DNA of 29,196 nt from a virus, in IMG/VR virus record IMGVR_UViG_3300001589_000056, positions 1 through 29,196 of that record. One strand, given 5' to 3'. Of this stretch, positions 8,578 to 28,377 are shown in pieces (the stretch's first letter is position 1; every line of letters starts with the position of its first letter). The notes under the pieces were generated by a model. It was given only the letters and a program-made list of their open reading frames with translations, had not been told where the DNA came from and did not search any database. Both the position numbers and the translations under genes were made by a program.

Positions 8578-11211
8578 ATGACAGAAATAGTAAAAGATTC
8601 TATAAACACAGTCAAGTTACTTACGGAAAATTCTATTTCCATATTACAAGCGGGTACGACGGATCCTGTGAATTGGTCAGAGTACACTTTAGATGGATTG
8701 GATTACAATGATGGTGCTGATCAAAACCTAGACTATCCTGTAGTTGCTAGATTCATAACGCCTCCATACTTTGCTCATGATGACGAAGATAACAGATTAA
8801 TTAGTATAGTTGCCCCACCCTATCTTGGTGTAAAAGAAGATGGGACAATGAACAGACTTGAAAAAATTGAGTTTTCTTTAAATAATGGACCTATGACTAC
8901 AGTAACAGAATCAGAATCTGAAACTAGAGGATATGAGTGCTATACTGTGATGCATCCATACGATGAAAATAATCCGCCAGAGAATAAAACAAATGAAGTA
9001 AGGGCTATCATTTATTACCAAAGAGGATTGCCAAGAATACTTCAGGGAATTGCAACCGAGTTACCACCAAGCGAAGGCGACAAGGGCCCTCGTACGGTTT
9101 CTTCGTGGTATGCTAATGATCGATCCTTTGAGACTCGTGGTTGCTTTATAGGAATGTATGAAGATTATTATGTTGATCCCAGTGGCAACAACAATAACGA
9201 TGGCAGATCACCTGAAAATGCAATGGAGTCCCCATTCGATGCGTATCAAAAAGCATATGGGAATGGTCATACGAACATAAGAATCAACAACAGTTACGTT
9301 AAAGTAATTAATATTGATACAGAAGATCCTCAGAACACGAAATACGTGGGCGCTTTAAGTATAGAGGAATATTACAAACCAAGCAGGAGACTGACCGATG
9401 GAGGCGAAGTTCCGGTTAACCAAGCGAGCAGCGACTTTATTCATCGAGTCACTCTCCCGTCAATAGTTAGAGGTGGGGATATTTATGTTAATAATGCCGG
9501 GGAGAATACGTCATACGATCAAGGTGCGTTATTTAAAAACTGTAACATGTGTTTAAACCCCACCGTCGATACCGGGAATCAGTCCGGCCGGACTATGAAG
9601 ATAAGAAATAAAAATTCGGCGAGTAACTCGTCCTTCCCATATAGAGATTGGTGTTATGTAACTTTTGATGGTTGTACCATTGGACCAGAAGAAAAACCGG
9701 ATAGCCATGGTGGTGGATTCGGGGAAATCGAAGACCAGTCGTATCACAGTAAGGTTGGTGGTTATGGGTTACAACTAGTTGAGGCGGGAAGTGTTTATAC
9801 TGGTAATAATTCTATCTACAGATGTACGGTAAATTATGGTTGTCCGAACGCGGGTCATGAAATAGTTGACACAACTATTATAACACCCCCTACCCAGAAC
9901 GACGTTTCTAATTACGGTATGTTAGTAGGTGTTAATAGCTATGATGTACATCCGATGTTTTATCCGTGGGGTTCAATGGGAAGTCCAAAAGATCTTCCTA
10001 GTGGCTCTACAGCAAAAACTGTTAAATTTGGTATACCTTTTTCTACTGATGGTGAGTACGATGACTTACATGATAATATTTCTTACTCTGACACAAGGTA
10101 TAAGTCTTATAAATCCATCGCATACAGAGAACCATACAACAACTGTCCAGACACATTTGGTTTTGACAGAGATGAAGATGGAAACCCTTTGGAAGAACTT
10201 GCACTTCCACATGACAAAGGATTCTGGCCAGATTACATGTATGTGGGTAAGAAGGGTATAAAGGATACCTACATCAGACAGAGATATGCCAATGGTGAAT
10301 GTTGTAAATTAATTTACGGTAGTTCTGATTCCGAAGAAGGATTTGAGTCACCATGTTGTGAGTGGTATGGATCTAAATGGGTAGATCAAATTGTAGCGGG
10401 GTCAGATGGGGACTGTTGTGCTTATCCAGCATCTAATCCGATTAATGAGGAATGCTTATCCTGTGAACCGGCCGGTTGCGACCGTGACGGTAAACGTTGT
10501 GGATGTTATGCGGGGTGTGATTCCGATAATCCAACGAACTGTTGCGAAAACATTACAGGGGCTTGGTTAAGCCAAATTTGCATCAATATGTCACAGATAA
10601 AAAATAGCGATGATACACTGTACTATAACACCACAGATCCAAATTCAGAGTGGTACAATAAGAAATTTAAAGAGAAGCCGAGGGATCCTCACTTTGATAT
10701 ACAACAGTTCAACGCACCTTATAATAATGTAGTGGTTTATAATTTAGATGTCACAACCGTGAAAGCCGGTTTTCAGGGTATTTTTTGGTCTGACGAAGCC
10801 AAGGTTCGTAGTTCTGCCATGTGGAATGTGGTGATCAACAATAGAGGTAATTTAGAATCACATCCATATTCCGTAGGATCCGTAGATGAAAATAATGGTG
10901 ATAGTAACGATCCCAGTGGGACATTTCAACACTACGGTCCAAATATTAAGGGATATATGGGTCTCGATGGGGATGGAGACGCTATTATATTCAACCCCAG
11001 AAATTATATGACGAATGGAGAAGGTAACTCCAACAGGGACAATTGGTTCTATATGAATGGACTGGATGGAAATTGGGGAGCATTGACAGATTGGGATGAT
11101 GTCCTTGAAAATGGGACTAAAAGTGTAATGAGAAGCGATGTCCCCGGTACGAATGATCCATCAGAGGGTATACACTACACTCAGGTTTCATCGAATACAA
11201 CCCATACATAA
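8578..11211 (+). CDS. beta-helix fibre protein with cysteine-rich insert (877 aa)
   Basis: Probable virion fibre or spike. The N-terminal domain (~55-160; FITPPYF, IEFSLNNGPMTTVTES, VRAIIYYQRGLP) looks Ig-like and is paralogous to the same region of the 937-aa protein downstream. A YYVDPSGNNNNDGRSPENAM segment near 197 is the usual lead-in to right-handed beta-helix domains, and coils follow to about residue 570. An insert at ~575-669 carries about 15 cysteines, several in CC pairs (PCCEWYGSKW, GDCCAYP, NCCENITGAW). The C-terminus returns to Asn/Gly-rich coils. GGA lies 9 bases before the ATG. Disulfides or metal would stabilise the insert outside the cell. A carbohydrate-binding role is inferred. 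Confidence 0.75.
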   Translation: MTEIVKDSINTVKLLTENSISILQAGTTDPVNWSEYTLDGLDYNDGADQNLDYPVVARFITPPYFAHDDEDNRLISIVAPPYLGVKEDGTMNRLEKIEFSLNNGPMTTVTESESETRGYECYTVMHPYDENNPPENKTNEVRAIIYYQRGLPRILQGIATELPPSEGDKGPRTVSSWYANDRSFETRGCFIGMYEDYYVDPSGNNNNDGRSPENAMESPFDAYQKAYGNGHTNIRINNSYVKVINIDTEDPQNTKYVGALSIEEYYKPSRRLTDGGEVPVNQASSDFIHRVTLPSIVRGGDIYVNNAGENTSYDQGALFKNCNMCLNPTVDTGNQSGRTMKIRNKNSASNSSFPYRDWCYVTFDGCTIGPEEKPDSHGGGFGEIEDQSYHSKVGGYGLQLVEAGSVYTGNNSIYRCTVNYGCPNAGHEIVDTTIITPPTQNDVSNYGMLVGVNSYDVHPMFYPWGSMGSPKDLPSGSTAKTVKFGIPFSTDGEYDDLHDNISYSDTRYKSYKSIAYREPYNNCPDTFGFDRDEDGNPLEELALPHDKGFWPDYMYVGKKGIKDTYIRQRYANGECCKLIYGSSDSEEGFESPCCEWYGSKWVDQIVAGSDGDCCAYPASNPINEECLSCEPAGCDRDGKRCGCYAGCDSDNPTNCCENITGAWLSQICINMSQIKNSDDTLYYNTTDPNSEWYNKKFKEKPRDPHFDIQQFNAPYNNVVVYNLDVTTVKAGFQGIFWSDEAKVRSSAMWNVVINNRGNLESHPYSVGSVDENNGDSNDPSGTFQHYGPNIKGYMGLDGDGDAIIFNPRNYMTNGEGNSNRDNWFYMNGLDGNWGALTDWDDVLENGTKSVMRSDVPGTNDPSEGIHYTQVSSNTTHT

Positions 11212-16999: not shown

Positions 17000-17575
17000 A
17001 TGAATATATTTGTACTTGATAAAAATCCTAAAACATCTGCCAATCTTATGTGTGACAAGCACGTTGTAAAAATGATTGTAGAGTCTGCTCAAATGCTTTC
17101 TACTGTTCACCGTTACTTGGATGGAGATGAATTTATTTCATATAGCAAAAATGGTAGAAGAATTAAGAGATGGACACACGATACGGATGTCCCTGACTCC
17201 AAAATTCGCCTGTTTAAATCAGTTATGTTGAATCATCCGTGTACAATTTGGACTAGAGAGTCTCTCGGTAACTATTGTTGGTTGGCTAGTCATGCTCTTG
17301 AACTATGTCGTGAGTACACATATCGTTACGGCAGAATTCACAAAACTGAAGGTCTTGTAAATTGGTTTGTATACAATTACCCAAAGCAATTGTATGGATT
17401 TCATCTTACAGACTTTGCACAAGCGATGCCTGATGAGTACAAAGTAACTGGTGATGCCGTTGCAGCCTATCAGGCATATTATCGAGGAGAGAAGGCAGGA
17501 TTTGCAAAGTGGACAAACAGGGAAATTCCAGAATGGTTCTTGACAAAGGATGAAAATGTAGTACAATGTGCGTAA
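17000..17575 (+). CDS. conserved phage protein with CDKHVVKM motif (191 aa)
   Basis: I recognise this as a family common in T4-like and marine phages: MNIFVLDKNPKTSANLMCDK followed by HVVKMIVESAQMLSTVHRYL at the N-terminus; NHPCTIWTRESLGNYCWLAS in the centre; and FAQAMPDEY then YQAYYRGEKAGFAKWTNREI plus PEWF at the C-terminus. The family has no function known to me. Conserved Cys, Asp, His, Arg and Trp residues suggest an enzyme or nucleic-acid-binding protein. Length is normal for the family. The last 12 codons contain the complete promoter for the downstream tRNA leader. Confidence 0.72.
   Translation: MNIFVLDKNPKTSANLMCDKHVVKMIVESAQMLSTVHRYLDGDEFISYSKNGRRIKRWTHDTDVPDSKIRLFKSVMLNHPCTIWTRESLGNYCWLASHALELCREYTYRYGRIHKTEGLVNWFVYNYPKQLYGFHLTDFAQAMPDEYKVTGDAVAAYQAYYRGEKAGFAKWTNREIPEWFLTKDENVVQCA
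17540..17567 (+). promoter_or_regulatory. sigma70-type promoter for tRNA-Lys/Gly leader
   Basis: TTGACA (17540-17545), a 16-bp spacer and TACAAT (17562-17567), then GTGCGT and a predicted start near 17574. It lies in the end of the preceding gene. Confidence 0.82.
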
Positions 17576-17592
17576 TGACTTAATTATATTAT

Positions 17593-17672
17593 GGTGGTTT
17601 TGGACAGTGAACCCTGATCACTTCCGAGTTTAGGGACCTCTACAAACCCTGGCGTTAGGGGGATTCGCCACC
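17593..17672 (+). ncRNA. structured leader upstream of tRNA-Lys
   Basis: About 80 nt with no ORF between the promoter and tRNA-Lys. GGTGG (17593-17597) can close with CCACC (17668-17672). Inside are CCCT...AGGG pairs at 17612-17615/17632-17635 and 17647-17650/17657-17660. An alternative AGGG/CCCT hairpin followed by CATTTT (17657-17680) could be an attenuator. It lacks D-loop and T-loop consensus, so it is not a normal tRNA. Confidence 0.4.
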
Positions 17673-17680
17673 CTCATTTT

Positions 17681-17753
17681 GCCGCTTTAGCTCAGTTGGT
17701 AGAGCTGGTGACTTTTAATCACTAGGTCGGGGGTTCGAGTCCCTCAAGCGGTA
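17681..17753 (+). tRNA. tRNA-Lys (anticodon TTT)
   Basis: Acceptor GCCGCTT/AAGCGGT, canonical D arm (TAGCTCAGTTGGTAGAGC), anticodon loop CTTTTAA with TTT at 17714-17716 and T loop GTTCGAGTC. CCA is not encoded. It lies four bases from tRNA-Gly and shares its transcript. Confidence 0.95.
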
Positions 17754-17757
17754 TTTA

Positions 17758-17830
17758 GCGGGTGTAGCTCAATTGGTAGAGCGTCAGCTTTCCAAGCTGA
17801 ATGTTGACGGTTCGAGTCCGTTCACCCGCT
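17758..17830 (+). tRNA. tRNA-Gly (anticodon TCC)
   Basis: Acceptor GCGGGTG/CACCCGC, anticodon stem TCAGC/GCTGA with loop TTTCCAA, giving TCC at 17791-17793 (reads GGA). CCA is not encoded. The last 47 bases overlap, in antisense, the 3' end of the oxygenase gene at 17784-18404. Confidence 0.95.
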
Positions 17831-18404
17831 TCCAGTTCACGCTAGAAGTTGCTTTCTTTTTATCAGATGTCCAGAAAGAAGCAATGGTGTATCTAGTTTT
17901 ACCTTTTATCTCTGTGACACCATGACGGTGATTACAGTCCGACAAGTGAATAGCAATTCTACCAGAAATTGGATCTATTTTAAAATTATGACCAGGGTAA
18001 TAAGTTTCTCCCCCGTCATAGTCATCATTTAAGTAAATGATAGATCCAAATTCCCGGTGTCCATGTATTTTATTTTCACCTTCTACATTTGACATATCAT
18101 CACAATGTGGTGACTGGGCCATCCCGTCAAACCATCTACAAAGACTCATGGCATCTGCGTAAGGTGTATATGGTAAATCGTATTTTTCGTGTATTATCTG
18201 TTGGGTTTTTAAAGCGGCTTTTTCTATGATTTCAGCAACATCTGAGTTTTCTGGTTTGATACGATCAAGTGTAATTGTTCTTTTATCCCATATAGTGTCA
18301 GGATAAGGTATCCAAACATCAGTATTTTCTGCGTAGGATAAAATGGCGGTTACTTCTTCATTCGTTAAAAATTGATCAATTGAAACTGGGTTGAATTCTG
18401 ACAT
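17784..18404 (-). CDS. 2-oxoglutarate/Fe(II) dioxygenase, prolyl hydroxylase-like (206 aa)
   Basis: Prolyl-4-hydroxylase-like dioxygenase. The iron ligands are H100 and D102 (SPHCDD) and H161 (NHRHGVTEI), with R171 in TRYTIASFW for 2-oxoglutarate. The YLNDDYDGGETYYPG strand (124-138) and IDPISGRIAIH (143-153) match the double-stranded beta-helix core. I start at 18404, after TTGGAG, because the in-frame TTG at 18419 is part of that site. A CTAAATA late box lies 28 bases upstream. Residues ~192-206 are encoded across the antisense of tRNA-Gly, so the natural C-terminus has probably been replaced by read-through. Such enzymes are frequent in marine myoviruses; the substrate is unknown. Confidence 0.85.
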   Translation of the reverse strand: MSEFNPVSIDQFLTNEEVTAILSYAENTDVWIPYPDTIWDKRTITLDRIKPENSDVAEIIEKAALKTQQIIHEKYDLPYTPYADAMSLCRWFDGMAQSPHCDDMSNVEGENKIHGHREFGSIIYLNDDYDGGETYYPGHNFKIDPISGRIAIHLSDCNHRHGVTEIKGKTRYTIASFWTSDKKKATSSVNWKRVNGLEPSTFSLES

Positions 18405-18431: not shown

Positions 18432-18438
18432 TATTTAG
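18432..18438 (-). promoter_or_regulatory. T4-like late promoter box
   Basis: CTAAATA followed by CTGTAG on the minus strand, 28 bases upstream of the oxygenase ATG. The same CTAAATACTGT string is found at 1248..1238. Confidence 0.5.
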
Positions 18439-18449
18439 ACACAAAAGGG

Positions 18450-18477
18450 TTGACAAACCCACCACAACGAGTATAAT
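18450..18477 (+). promoter_or_regulatory. sigma70-type promoter for the ncRNA unit
   Basis: TTGACA (18450-18455), a 16-bp spacer and TATAAT (18472-18477), then ACTCGT and ATG. The predicted start is at 18484. The ATG opens only a four-codon ORF, so the transcript appears non-coding. Confidence 0.87.
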
Positions 18478-18483
18478 ACTCGT

Positions 18484-18790
18484 ATGACAAATGAATAAGA
18501 AATAATGTGAGGGAGACTAATTACCTCCCTTACGGGACTCGCATAATAATCCTCTACGAATGGGGATAGTGCAAACTCCAAGTGGTTTAGCGACCTGTCC
18601 TCATGATGCAGAAATGCTTGTGGGAGATGATCCTTAGCGGGATGTGTGGAGTGGTGGAAACAGATTACTACAGCCATTGTACGTTCGTTCTGTTTCCTTC
18701 AGGTATACAATAACCCTGAGTCCCATTAAACTACGCCGCGGGGGGAGGAACCGAACTTTGAACTCGGCACACTTCCCTCGCGGTTTTCTT
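18484..18790 (+). ncRNA. structured non-coding RNA of about 305 nt
   Basis: A promoter-to-terminator unit with no plausible protein. Visible helices: GTGAGGGAG/CTCCCTTAC (18507-18515 with 18525-18533, 9 bp); GGGACTC/GAGTCCC (18534-18540 with 18718-18724), closing a 190-nt domain; ATCCTC/GGGGAT (18549-18554 with 18562-18567); a GAAA tetraloop capped by GCA/TGC (18608-18617); GGAAACAGA/TCTGTTTCC (18656-18664 with 18689-18697) enclosing TACA/TGTA; and a terminator hairpin (18736-18783). It does not show the conserved cores of tmRNA, RNase P or 5S rRNA. I do not recognise a class. Phage ncRNAs beside tRNAs include GOLLD-like families, but I cannot place it there. Confidence 0.75.
18736..18790 (+). 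terminator. rho-independent terminator of the ncRNA
   Basis: A long stem: CCGCG (18736-18740) with CGCGG (18779-18783), and GGGGGAG (18741-18747) with CTTCCCT (18772-18778, including G-U pairs). An inner CCGA/TCGG follows, then TTTTCTT. It may also be the 3' domain of the RNA. Confidence 0.75.
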
Positions 18791-27378: not shown

Positions 27379-27574
27379 GTGCGAAATCCAAATTCCAGAA
27401 GCCCGTTTAGAAGCAGTCCCCGACGCAGAATATTGTGTCAACTGTACTGATAAAAACTCCGCTCCTGTTATTGCCCGTGTGATCTACAGTCATAAGTGTG
27501 ATAGCGAACTGTTCATTGCCAAGGGCAAAGAAAACGTTCGCCGGCTTAGTCGTGAATGGTCTAGATCCCGGTGA
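27365..27574 (+). CDS. DksA/TraR-type zinc finger protein (69 aa)
   Basis: MICLECEIQIPEARLEAVPD followed by AEYCVNC supplies C3, C6, C24 and C27 with the I-P-x-A-R and V-P linker typical of DksA/TraR C4 zinc fingers. Only the zinc-finger part is present, with no coiled coil, so it is a short phage version. Such proteins may bind RNA polymerase; small TraR homologues do so with other domains, and this one cannot be assumed to act alone. The start at 27365 has AAAAGGA 9 bases upstream; the in-frame ATG at 27326 is rejected. It overlaps the membrane protein gene by 14 nt. Confidence 0.75.
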   Translation: MICLECEIQIPEARLEAVPDAEYCVNCTDKNSAPVIARVIYSHKCDSELFIAKGKENVRRLSREWSRSR

Positions 27575-28377
27575 TATCTCCCATAACAACCACCCACAAT
27601 CTAGTCCAAATTGATCCAACCGAGATTTCTGTTTCTAGAATCTCGGTTGGTCAACTTTTTTCTATGATAAAAGATTTGAGTAAAGCAAAAACACGACCTG
27701 CACCGGGAAGAAAATTTTGTTTTGCTATCTGGCATAAAGATTTACTCATAGGTGTTATGGGTTTTTCTAGTCCTGTGATTAATCTTGGTGTCAGAGATGA
27801 GCACTTAAACATGCCAAAAAATCCATCCGAAAAAGGAAAGGTTCTTCGGAGTTATGTTGATATGTCAACGTGTGTTGGTCTTCAACCATTATCTTGGCAT
27901 TGGAACATAGGAAAACTTATCGCTATGTTAGGAGTCTCGTCTGCTGTCTCCTCGTACTATCAACACCAATACCGTGACGATCTTGTGGGTGTTACTACAA
28001 CGTCTCTGAGCGGACGAGGATCGCAGTACAACCGTCTCTATAAGTTTCTAGGGTATACGAAGGGTTATGGACACGAACATGTCTCAGACGAAGAGTACCA
28101 GCGTATGATGCAATGGATGAGAGATAATGATATCGAGATTCCATCCTGCAATTTTGGGGCAGGTAGTAATCCTCGTATGCGTAGAATTGCTGCCTATAAT
28201 AAGGCGAATGGAATTAAATCTCCTATGAAGCACGGAAAGAAGAGAGGCGTATACTACATGGCTTGTTCTAATGAAAGTGTTGAAAGTATATGTGAAAGAT
28301 GGTATAATCGCTGGGGTAAATCTAGATATGAACGAACCAAAGATCAAACACCCCCATACTTAAATGGAACTGATTAA
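27571..28377 (+). CDS. DUF4338 (DruA-like) protein (268 aa)
   Basis: By pattern a DUF4338-family protein. LIGVMGFSSPVINLGVRD (59-76) corresponds to the family's LG-x-LGFSS ... RD block, VLRSYVDMSTCVGLQPL (91-107) to its conserved strand-helix, and VGVTTTSLSGRGSQYNRLYK (139-158) with FLGYTKGYG (159-167) to its C-terminal core. DruA of the Druantia defence system belongs to this family, but phage copies occur alone and their role is unknown. The C-terminus (KHGKKRGVYYMACSN; CERWYNRWGKSR) adds a basic tail. It starts with GTG overlapping the previous stop by 4 nt. No other Druantia genes are present. Confidence 0.6.
   Translation: MISPITTTHNLVQIDPTEISVSRISVGQLFSMIKDLSKAKTRPAPGRKFCFAIWHKDLLIGVMGFSSPVINLGVRDEHLNMPKNPSEKGKVLRSYVDMSTCVGLQPLSWHWNIGKLIAMLGVSSAVSSYYQHQYRDDLVGVTTTSLSGRGSQYNRLYKFLGYTKGYGHEHVSDEEYQRMMQWMRDNDIEIPSCNFGAGSNPRMRRIAAYNKANGIKSPMKHGKKRGVYYMACSNESVESICERWYNRWGKSRYERTKDQTPPYLNGTD

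Follow-up and report, generated by a model that had tools for sequence, protein, structure and literature searches.

A divergent branch of the manA RNA family with its own transcription signals, beside tRNA genes of uncultured phages

The window analyzed here is a viral DNA stretch of 29,196 nucleotides (nt), positions 1 to 29,196 of IMG/VR record IMGVR_UViG_3300001589_000056. Positions 18484–18790 of its plus strand are predicted to specify a stand-alone structured RNA, and covariance-model and sequence comparisons identify this RNA as a divergent branch of the known manA family (RF01745). Comparison of relatives at the sequence level shows a folded RNA under selection that either carries transcription signals of its own or is embedded in transfer RNA (tRNA) arrays. 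The element is probably a phage gene whose product is a free-standing, structured manA-family RNA that acts in trans. An earlier note on this DNA had proposed an undescribed, dedicated structured RNA. The promoter, terminator and covariation, and in relatives the place in arrays of tRNAs and transfer-messenger RNAs (tmRNAs), bear out a dedicated, independently transcribed RNA, whereas the word undescribed falls, because the RNA is a divergent manA. The features of the locus are as follows.

18450–18477, plus strand: promoter TTGACA-N16-TATAAT, matching the consensus at 12 of 12 positions and scoring highest in the region
18467–18483, no strand assigned: inverted repeat ACGAGTAT-A-ATACTCGT, a possible operator, overlying the −10 box
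18484–18790, plus strand: predicted primary transcript of the stand-alone RNA (promoter, fold, terminator), both ends being predicted
18507–18533, plus strand: P0 hairpin, 18507–18515 with 18525–18533; 8 of 9 pairs changed on both sides in relatives
18508–18729, plus strand: full-length match to Rfam manA RF01745, 54.9 bits (gathering cut-off 55.2)
18534–18724, plus strand: conserved core closed by P1 (18534–18540 with 18718–18724); 26 distinct relatives, 202 bits with our own covariance model R1
18541–18572, plus strand: P2 stem-loop, GCAU (18541–18544) with 18569–18572 and AUCCUC (18549–18554) with GGGGAU (18562–18567)
18575–18652, plus strand: junction stem P3 enclosing three hairpins, ACUCCA (18575–18580) with UGGAGU (18647–18652); 5 of 6 pairs covary
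18584–18595, plus strand: hairpin GGU-UUAGCG-ACC, constant in 25 of 26 (GGC/GCC in locus L087)
18630–18643, plus strand: hairpin AUCC-UUAGCG-GGAU, in which C-G replaces U-A in 7 of 26
18656–18697, plus strand: hairpin C of the minimum free energy fold, GGAAACAGA (18656–18664) with TCTGTTTCC (18689–18697); both arms vary among relatives
18676–18681, plus strand: pseudoknot 5' strand AUUGUA in the hairpin C loop, pairing with 18706–18711; five complementary versions, including that of canonical manA
18699–18719, plus strand: hairpin D, UCAGG-loop-CCUGA, its last two bases common with P1 and its loop holding the pseudoknot 3' strand UACAAU (18706–18711)
18736–18790, plus strand: intrinsic terminator, hairpin 18736–18783 plus T-run, −29.7 kcal/mol

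The RF01745 match had an expectation (E) value of 1.9e-13 for the stretch and 1.3e-11 for the whole window. It missed the gathering score by 0.3 bits, so that the threshold is formally unmet while the significance is not in doubt. A Rfam scan of the window at the default cut-off reported tRNAs only, and manA was seen only when scanning by E-value. From this full-length match we take the window core to be a divergent manA RNA. The relation is seen from both sides, since RF01745 matches the variant and R1, which was built from our alignment of the variant (A2), recovers several copies of canonical manA over their full length and in the correct position, with 13–22 bits; other canonical copies, including that of S-CREM1, are missed by R1. 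The manA helix order (P0, long-range P1, P2, multi-stem junction, C, D) was found both in the full-length covariance-model alignment and in an independent RNAalifold consensus, and the loop-loop pseudoknot between hairpins C and D, another mark of membership, is present. The cis-regulatory place of manA, in the 5' untranslated region of a metabolic gene, was not found in the variant, which has its own terminator and varied downstream features including tRNAs; this placement is also inconstant among canonical members.

Relatives were collected with sequence patterns. A pattern for hairpin D gave 45 viral loci, and the 15 of these scanned with the manA model comprised six canonical manA RNAs (170–184 bits), eight variant cores below the cut-off and one chance match (L011). 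Three more patterns enlarged the variant group to 36 places, the window among them; 26 have distinct cores (A2), all in uncultured phages and with core lengths of 182–193 nt. When eight loci of this group were scanned with RF01745, seven scored 46–53 bits. A second subgroup (L047, L048, L051, L053, L055) gave no manA match at E values up to 0.5. Pattern matches at L070, L071, L072 and L078 were dropped as chance, the variant core being absent, and L011 and L014 held no manA core. With blastn, the region had no match among 50,697 phage records and a second-subgroup member only a chance-level one; the variant model found no match over seven T4-like isolates. Among the isolates searched, none carried the variant.

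The fold of 18484–18790 has a minimum free energy of −111.3 kcal/mol, compared with a mean of −83.4 for shuffled sequences (z = −5.8; none of 100 shuffles as stable). Three long helices described in the earlier note were recovered in place as P0, P1 and hairpin C, with a GGGACTC/GAGTCCC domain of 191 nt. Among 20 sequences, standard pairs filled 98.8% of pair cells, versus 36–51% when the partner was slid by 1–3 columns. In addition, 19 pairs changed on both sides, and the covariation score was 0.268 versus 0.139 ± 0.007 in shuffles, none of which reached it. Kinship among the sequences can inflate this shuffle test; the pairing is nevertheless taken as real, given the slide control and the way pairs switch from one subgroup to another. 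Most pair changes lie in P0 and P3, and in P2 the C-G pair 18551–18565 shows compensatory changes. P1 is constant within the variant (GGGACUC/GAGUCCC), whereas canonical manA has GGGAG/CUCCC; stem D occurs as UCAGG/CCUGA, UCUGG/CCAGA and GUUGG/CCAAC. The two junction hairpins at 18584–18595 and 18630–18643 have the loop UUAGCG in common. It should be noted that P3b pairs are out of register in the hand-written A2 structure, a flaw that R1 retains; the count from the RNAalifold structure is correct for the P3b helices. Compensatory changes were thus found in the homologues and no protein frame was constant among them, so that neither the fold nor the RNA reading of the earlier note is refuted.

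Complementarity between the C and D loops was present in all 26 cores, and only in L087 is it just 4 base pairs (ACUU/AAGU). The window has AUUGUA/UACAAU and other variants have UCGUA/UACGA, AUGUA/UACAU or CUUAC/GUAAG; canonical manA has CUGUA/UACAG, and S-CREM1, as read by eye, would have UGUCA/UGACA. RNAalifold placed these loop pairs on its own. A pairing labeled 'pseudoknot?' in manA was marked as weakly supported by Weinberg et al. (PMC2864571), and in our reading it is the same pairing. Compensatory changes support the predicted fold of the variant RNA, among them those of the pseudoknot, whose two strands change together from subgroup to subgroup and relative to canonical manA.

The transcription signals claimed in the earlier note were also recovered. 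The −35 box TTGACA is at 18450–18455 and the −10 box TATAAT at 18472–18477, with a spacer of 16 nt, and the GC-rich hairpin 18736–18783 is followed by TTTTCTTT; a simple terminator scan misses this hairpin because its loop is too long. The same note saw no usable open reading frame, in agreement with core lengths in relatives that change by steps other than multiples of 3. The core of the putative operator, CGAGTATAATACTCG, has a single copy in the window and a single copy in each of nine other loci, always at a manA-type RNA; in L077 the inverted repeat is partly doubled. The inner sequence of the window's terminator hairpin (GGAGGAACCG...GAAC.CGGC.CAC) is common to L049, L080 and L028, and the L028 copy has no T-run, so this hairpin may be more than a terminator.

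We compared 29 variants with distinct flanks with 870 positions drawn at random from the same loci. In the 110 nt upstream, a 12/12 promoter was present for 15 of the 29 variants and for 15 of the 870 random positions; in the 110 nt downstream, 21 variants and 21 random positions had a terminator at least as stable as −15 kcal/mol. The terminators mostly differ in sequence between relatives and do not overlap the conserved core; they are therefore placed outside the conserved element. Several promoterless copies sit in tRNA/tmRNA arrays. For example, L087 has tRNA-Gly 44 nt before the core and tRNA-Glu 12 nt after it, the core of L076 begins 49 nt past a complete tmRNA, and the RNA of L019, L048 and L075 lies ~175 nt past a permuted tmRNA. 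All tRNAs predicted by ARAGORN in variant loci are on the strand of the RNA. Downstream of the variant, tRNA-Glu, tRNA-Gln, tRNA-Gly or unrelated proteins are found, phage by phage, and a census of neighboring genes detected no protein gene at a constant place beside it. In the window, the next gene encodes a 44-aa protein and starts 39 nt after the terminator; it recurs in ten loci at widely differing distances. The tmRNAs and tmRNA-like RNAs upstream of manA-type RNAs are as follows.

L019, 8728–9111, minus strand: permuted tmRNA, tag DNSYSLAA
L048, 273–652: permuted tmRNA, same tag
L075, 1837–2219: permuted tmRNA, same tag
L085, 175–557: permuted tmRNA, same tag
L076, 2072–2411: one-piece tmRNA, tag ANTSYSLAA
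L086, 81–422, minus strand: one-piece tmRNA
L053, 3104–3186, plus strand: ~83-nt tmRNA-like RNA, 62.1 bits to RF00023
L077, 2253–2335, plus strand: ~83-nt tmRNA-like RNA, 38.3 bits
L082, 6080–6163, minus strand: ~83-nt tmRNA-like RNA, 35.0 bits

The three ~83-nt RNAs, shortly upstream of the manA-type RNA, have tRNA-like ends and miss the mRNA-like domain. They align to the tmRNA model from first to last position, although the gathering score of 47 was passed by L053 only. In the L053 RNA the T arm is perfect and the third acceptor pair is G-U, which is also seen in alanine acceptors.

Canonical manA RNAs occupy varied places. In cyanophage S-CREM1 the published annotation (10215–10429) puts the RNA between tRNA-Leu and tRNA-Asn, and then come an abiF RNA and tRNA-Gly. 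It follows gp23 in P-RSM4, P-HM1 and S-SSM5 and pstS in P-SSM4, lies between regA and purL in P-SSM2 and precedes talC in P-TIM40; the gene after it in P-TIM68 has the opposite orientation. An upstream promoter match of 10–12 of 12 was found for 13 of the 15 distinct canonical copies from metagenomes, and the contigs of the other two begin at or just before the RNA; a T-run lies within 7 nt of P1 in all 15. Two unannotated manA-like RNAs with promoters were detected in pelagiphages.

Pelagibacter phage Mosig, 108164–108371, minus strand: manA-like RNA, 64.0 bits, directly upstream of rubrerythrin
Pelagibacter phage HTVC008M, 5037–5223, plus strand: manA-like RNA, 25.9 bits, directly upstream of gp32

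If the variant is a gene for a trans-acting RNA, it would be made during infection alongside phage tRNAs and, in arrays, might be trimmed like the neighboring tRNAs. Hairpins C and D would be locked together by the loop-loop pseudoknot and the junction hairpins would present their UUAGCG loops, so that the RNA might offer a rigid surface for binding instead of regulating the gene that follows it. Its partner could be the translation machinery (the ribosome, a tRNA-handling factor or the tmRNA system); we favor this partner over others because the gene accompanies tRNAs and tmRNA without a constant protein neighbor, although we hold it only tentatively. Somewhat more doubtful is the extension that the whole manA family is no riboswitch class but consists of free phage RNAs that act in trans and, together with tRNAs and tmRNA, take over translation, with the tRNA-island branch as its plainest form.

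The main alternative is a cis-acting riboswitch, in which a metabolite bound by the core would regulate the next gene through the terminator or ribosome-binding site that follows. The Rfam type of RF01745 is Cis-reg, and manA was rated cis-regulatory, a possible switch, by Weinberg et al. (PMC2864571); in the open-access papers searched, manA is treated as cis-regulatory with no ligand named, and no statement of it as a free-standing RNA was found. In the window a terminator does follow the core, with the 44-aa gene shortly after it, and some canonical copies are directly upstream of metabolic genes. However, different relatives have different features downstream of the RNA, often a tRNA; the 44-aa gene keeps no fixed distance, and the terminators are mostly unlike in sequence and outside the core. 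The RNA also lies between tRNAs in L087 and S-CREM1, and in P-TIM68 the next gene faces the other way. We therefore regard control in cis as unlikely for the variant. Two sets of observations weigh against a free-standing, trans-acting RNA. A tRNA lies within 1 kb of 24 of the 29 variants versus 47.5% at random, only a moderate excess because the loci are tRNA-rich. In addition, the Mosig and HTVC008M RNAs and several canonical copies immediately precede a gene (talC, gp32, rubrerythrin, purL) and showed no hairpin terminator, an arrangement in keeping with control in cis; the pelagiphages were checked by eye. Since the two pelagiphage RNAs directly precede rubrerythrin and gp32, some canonical members may act in cis.

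Other readings appear less probable still. An antisense-type small RNA, whose UUAGCG loops pair with phage or host messages, would fit the two identical exposed loops and the stand-alone transcription, but the whole fold is conserved rather than one seed and both loops are altered in L087; we consider it improbable. Slightly more so is a small RNA of the GOLLD and ROOL kind, assembling into homo-oligomers or cages. Phage origin, tRNA islands and an elaborate fold with a pseudoknot speak for it; the window RNA is, however, much smaller and shows no sequence or Rfam relation, and the GOLLD and ROOL covariance models gave no match in the window at E values up to 0.5. The likeness to large phage RNAs near tRNAs seen in the earlier note thus holds for the setting and not for membership. 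A short coding region or chance fold, with no RNA gene at all, is hardly credible: there is a minus-strand open reading frame of 80 aa (18435–18677) and a short plus-strand frame, but covariation exceeds all shuffles and slides, core lengths vary by non-multiples of 3, and the plus-strand frame (MGIVQ...), rejected as a candidate, has no start codon in many relatives and a shifting stop.

Two further roles were considered and rejected. A split tmRNA was suggested by GCATAATAA in the core, which resembles the end of a tag frame, but no tmRNA (RF00023, RF04321; tRNA-like domain and tag frame) was called in the window, and the RNA is not a missing tmRNA half because L076 and L086 carry a complete tmRNA beside it. 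An anti-Shine-Dalgarno role of the P0 3' arm (ACCUCCCUUA) was dropped, as this arm varies with its partner.

With regard to the host phages, gp23 and terminase were not found in G000 (37-kb IMG/VR record), whereas T4-type gp23 occurs on four related contigs and terminase on five, the remaining ones being too short to show them. The gp23 of the L007 contig is at most 56% identical to T4-like phage proteins, with Kyanoviridae and pelagiphages among the nearest; the largest contig with a variant RNA is 142 kb (L083). We infer that the window phage is T4-like. The window has tRNA-Lys and tRNA-Gly at 17680–17834. Just before tRNA-Lys (17590–17680), a GGCG...GATTCGCC stretch resembles L053:2900–2940 and has no Rfam match. 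Adjoining the RNA are a pyrimidine-dimer DNA glycosylase family protein (17000–17575, plus strand) and a 2OG-Fe(II) oxygenase (17784–18404, minus strand); farther away, 27571–28377 (plus strand) encodes a DruA-like protein (PF14236, E 1.2e-19; PADLOC DruA1).

Our data suggest that manA is not simply the gene-control switch as which it is filed. For a branch with its own promoter and terminator between tRNAs, they suggest that a partner in trans, RNA or protein, should be sought instead of a metabolite. At its current threshold, Rfam overlooks this branch in uncultured T4-like phages; the stand-alone question is testable because cultured phages with manA exist.

Among known systems, the manA-II motif (PMC11109978) has only the name in common and is not the same family. 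GOLLD and ROOL are likewise structured RNAs with no known function that phages encode near tRNA islands, and they assemble into nanocages (PMC12286853), but they are unrelated in sequence and structure, and GOLLD often exceeds 800 nt. The S-CREM1 manA (PMC9964418) resembles the variant in lying inside a tRNA array, whereas the standard manA model gives it 96.6 bits and R1 does not match it. With manA itself (RF01745; Weinberg et al. 2010, PMC2864571) the variant shares the helix order, the P1-closed core, the D hairpin GGUAUACARUAAYCC, the loop-loop pseudoknot, an occurrence in marine T4-like phages and a promoter just upstream. It differs in its sub-threshold scores (46–55 bits, one subgroup undetected), in P1 and a junction with extra hairpins and UUAGCG loops, in the separate terminator hairpin and tRNA/tmRNA-island setting, and in being found in no isolate. 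Thus, manA has been known since 2010, and what is new here is its sub-threshold, tRNA-island variant.
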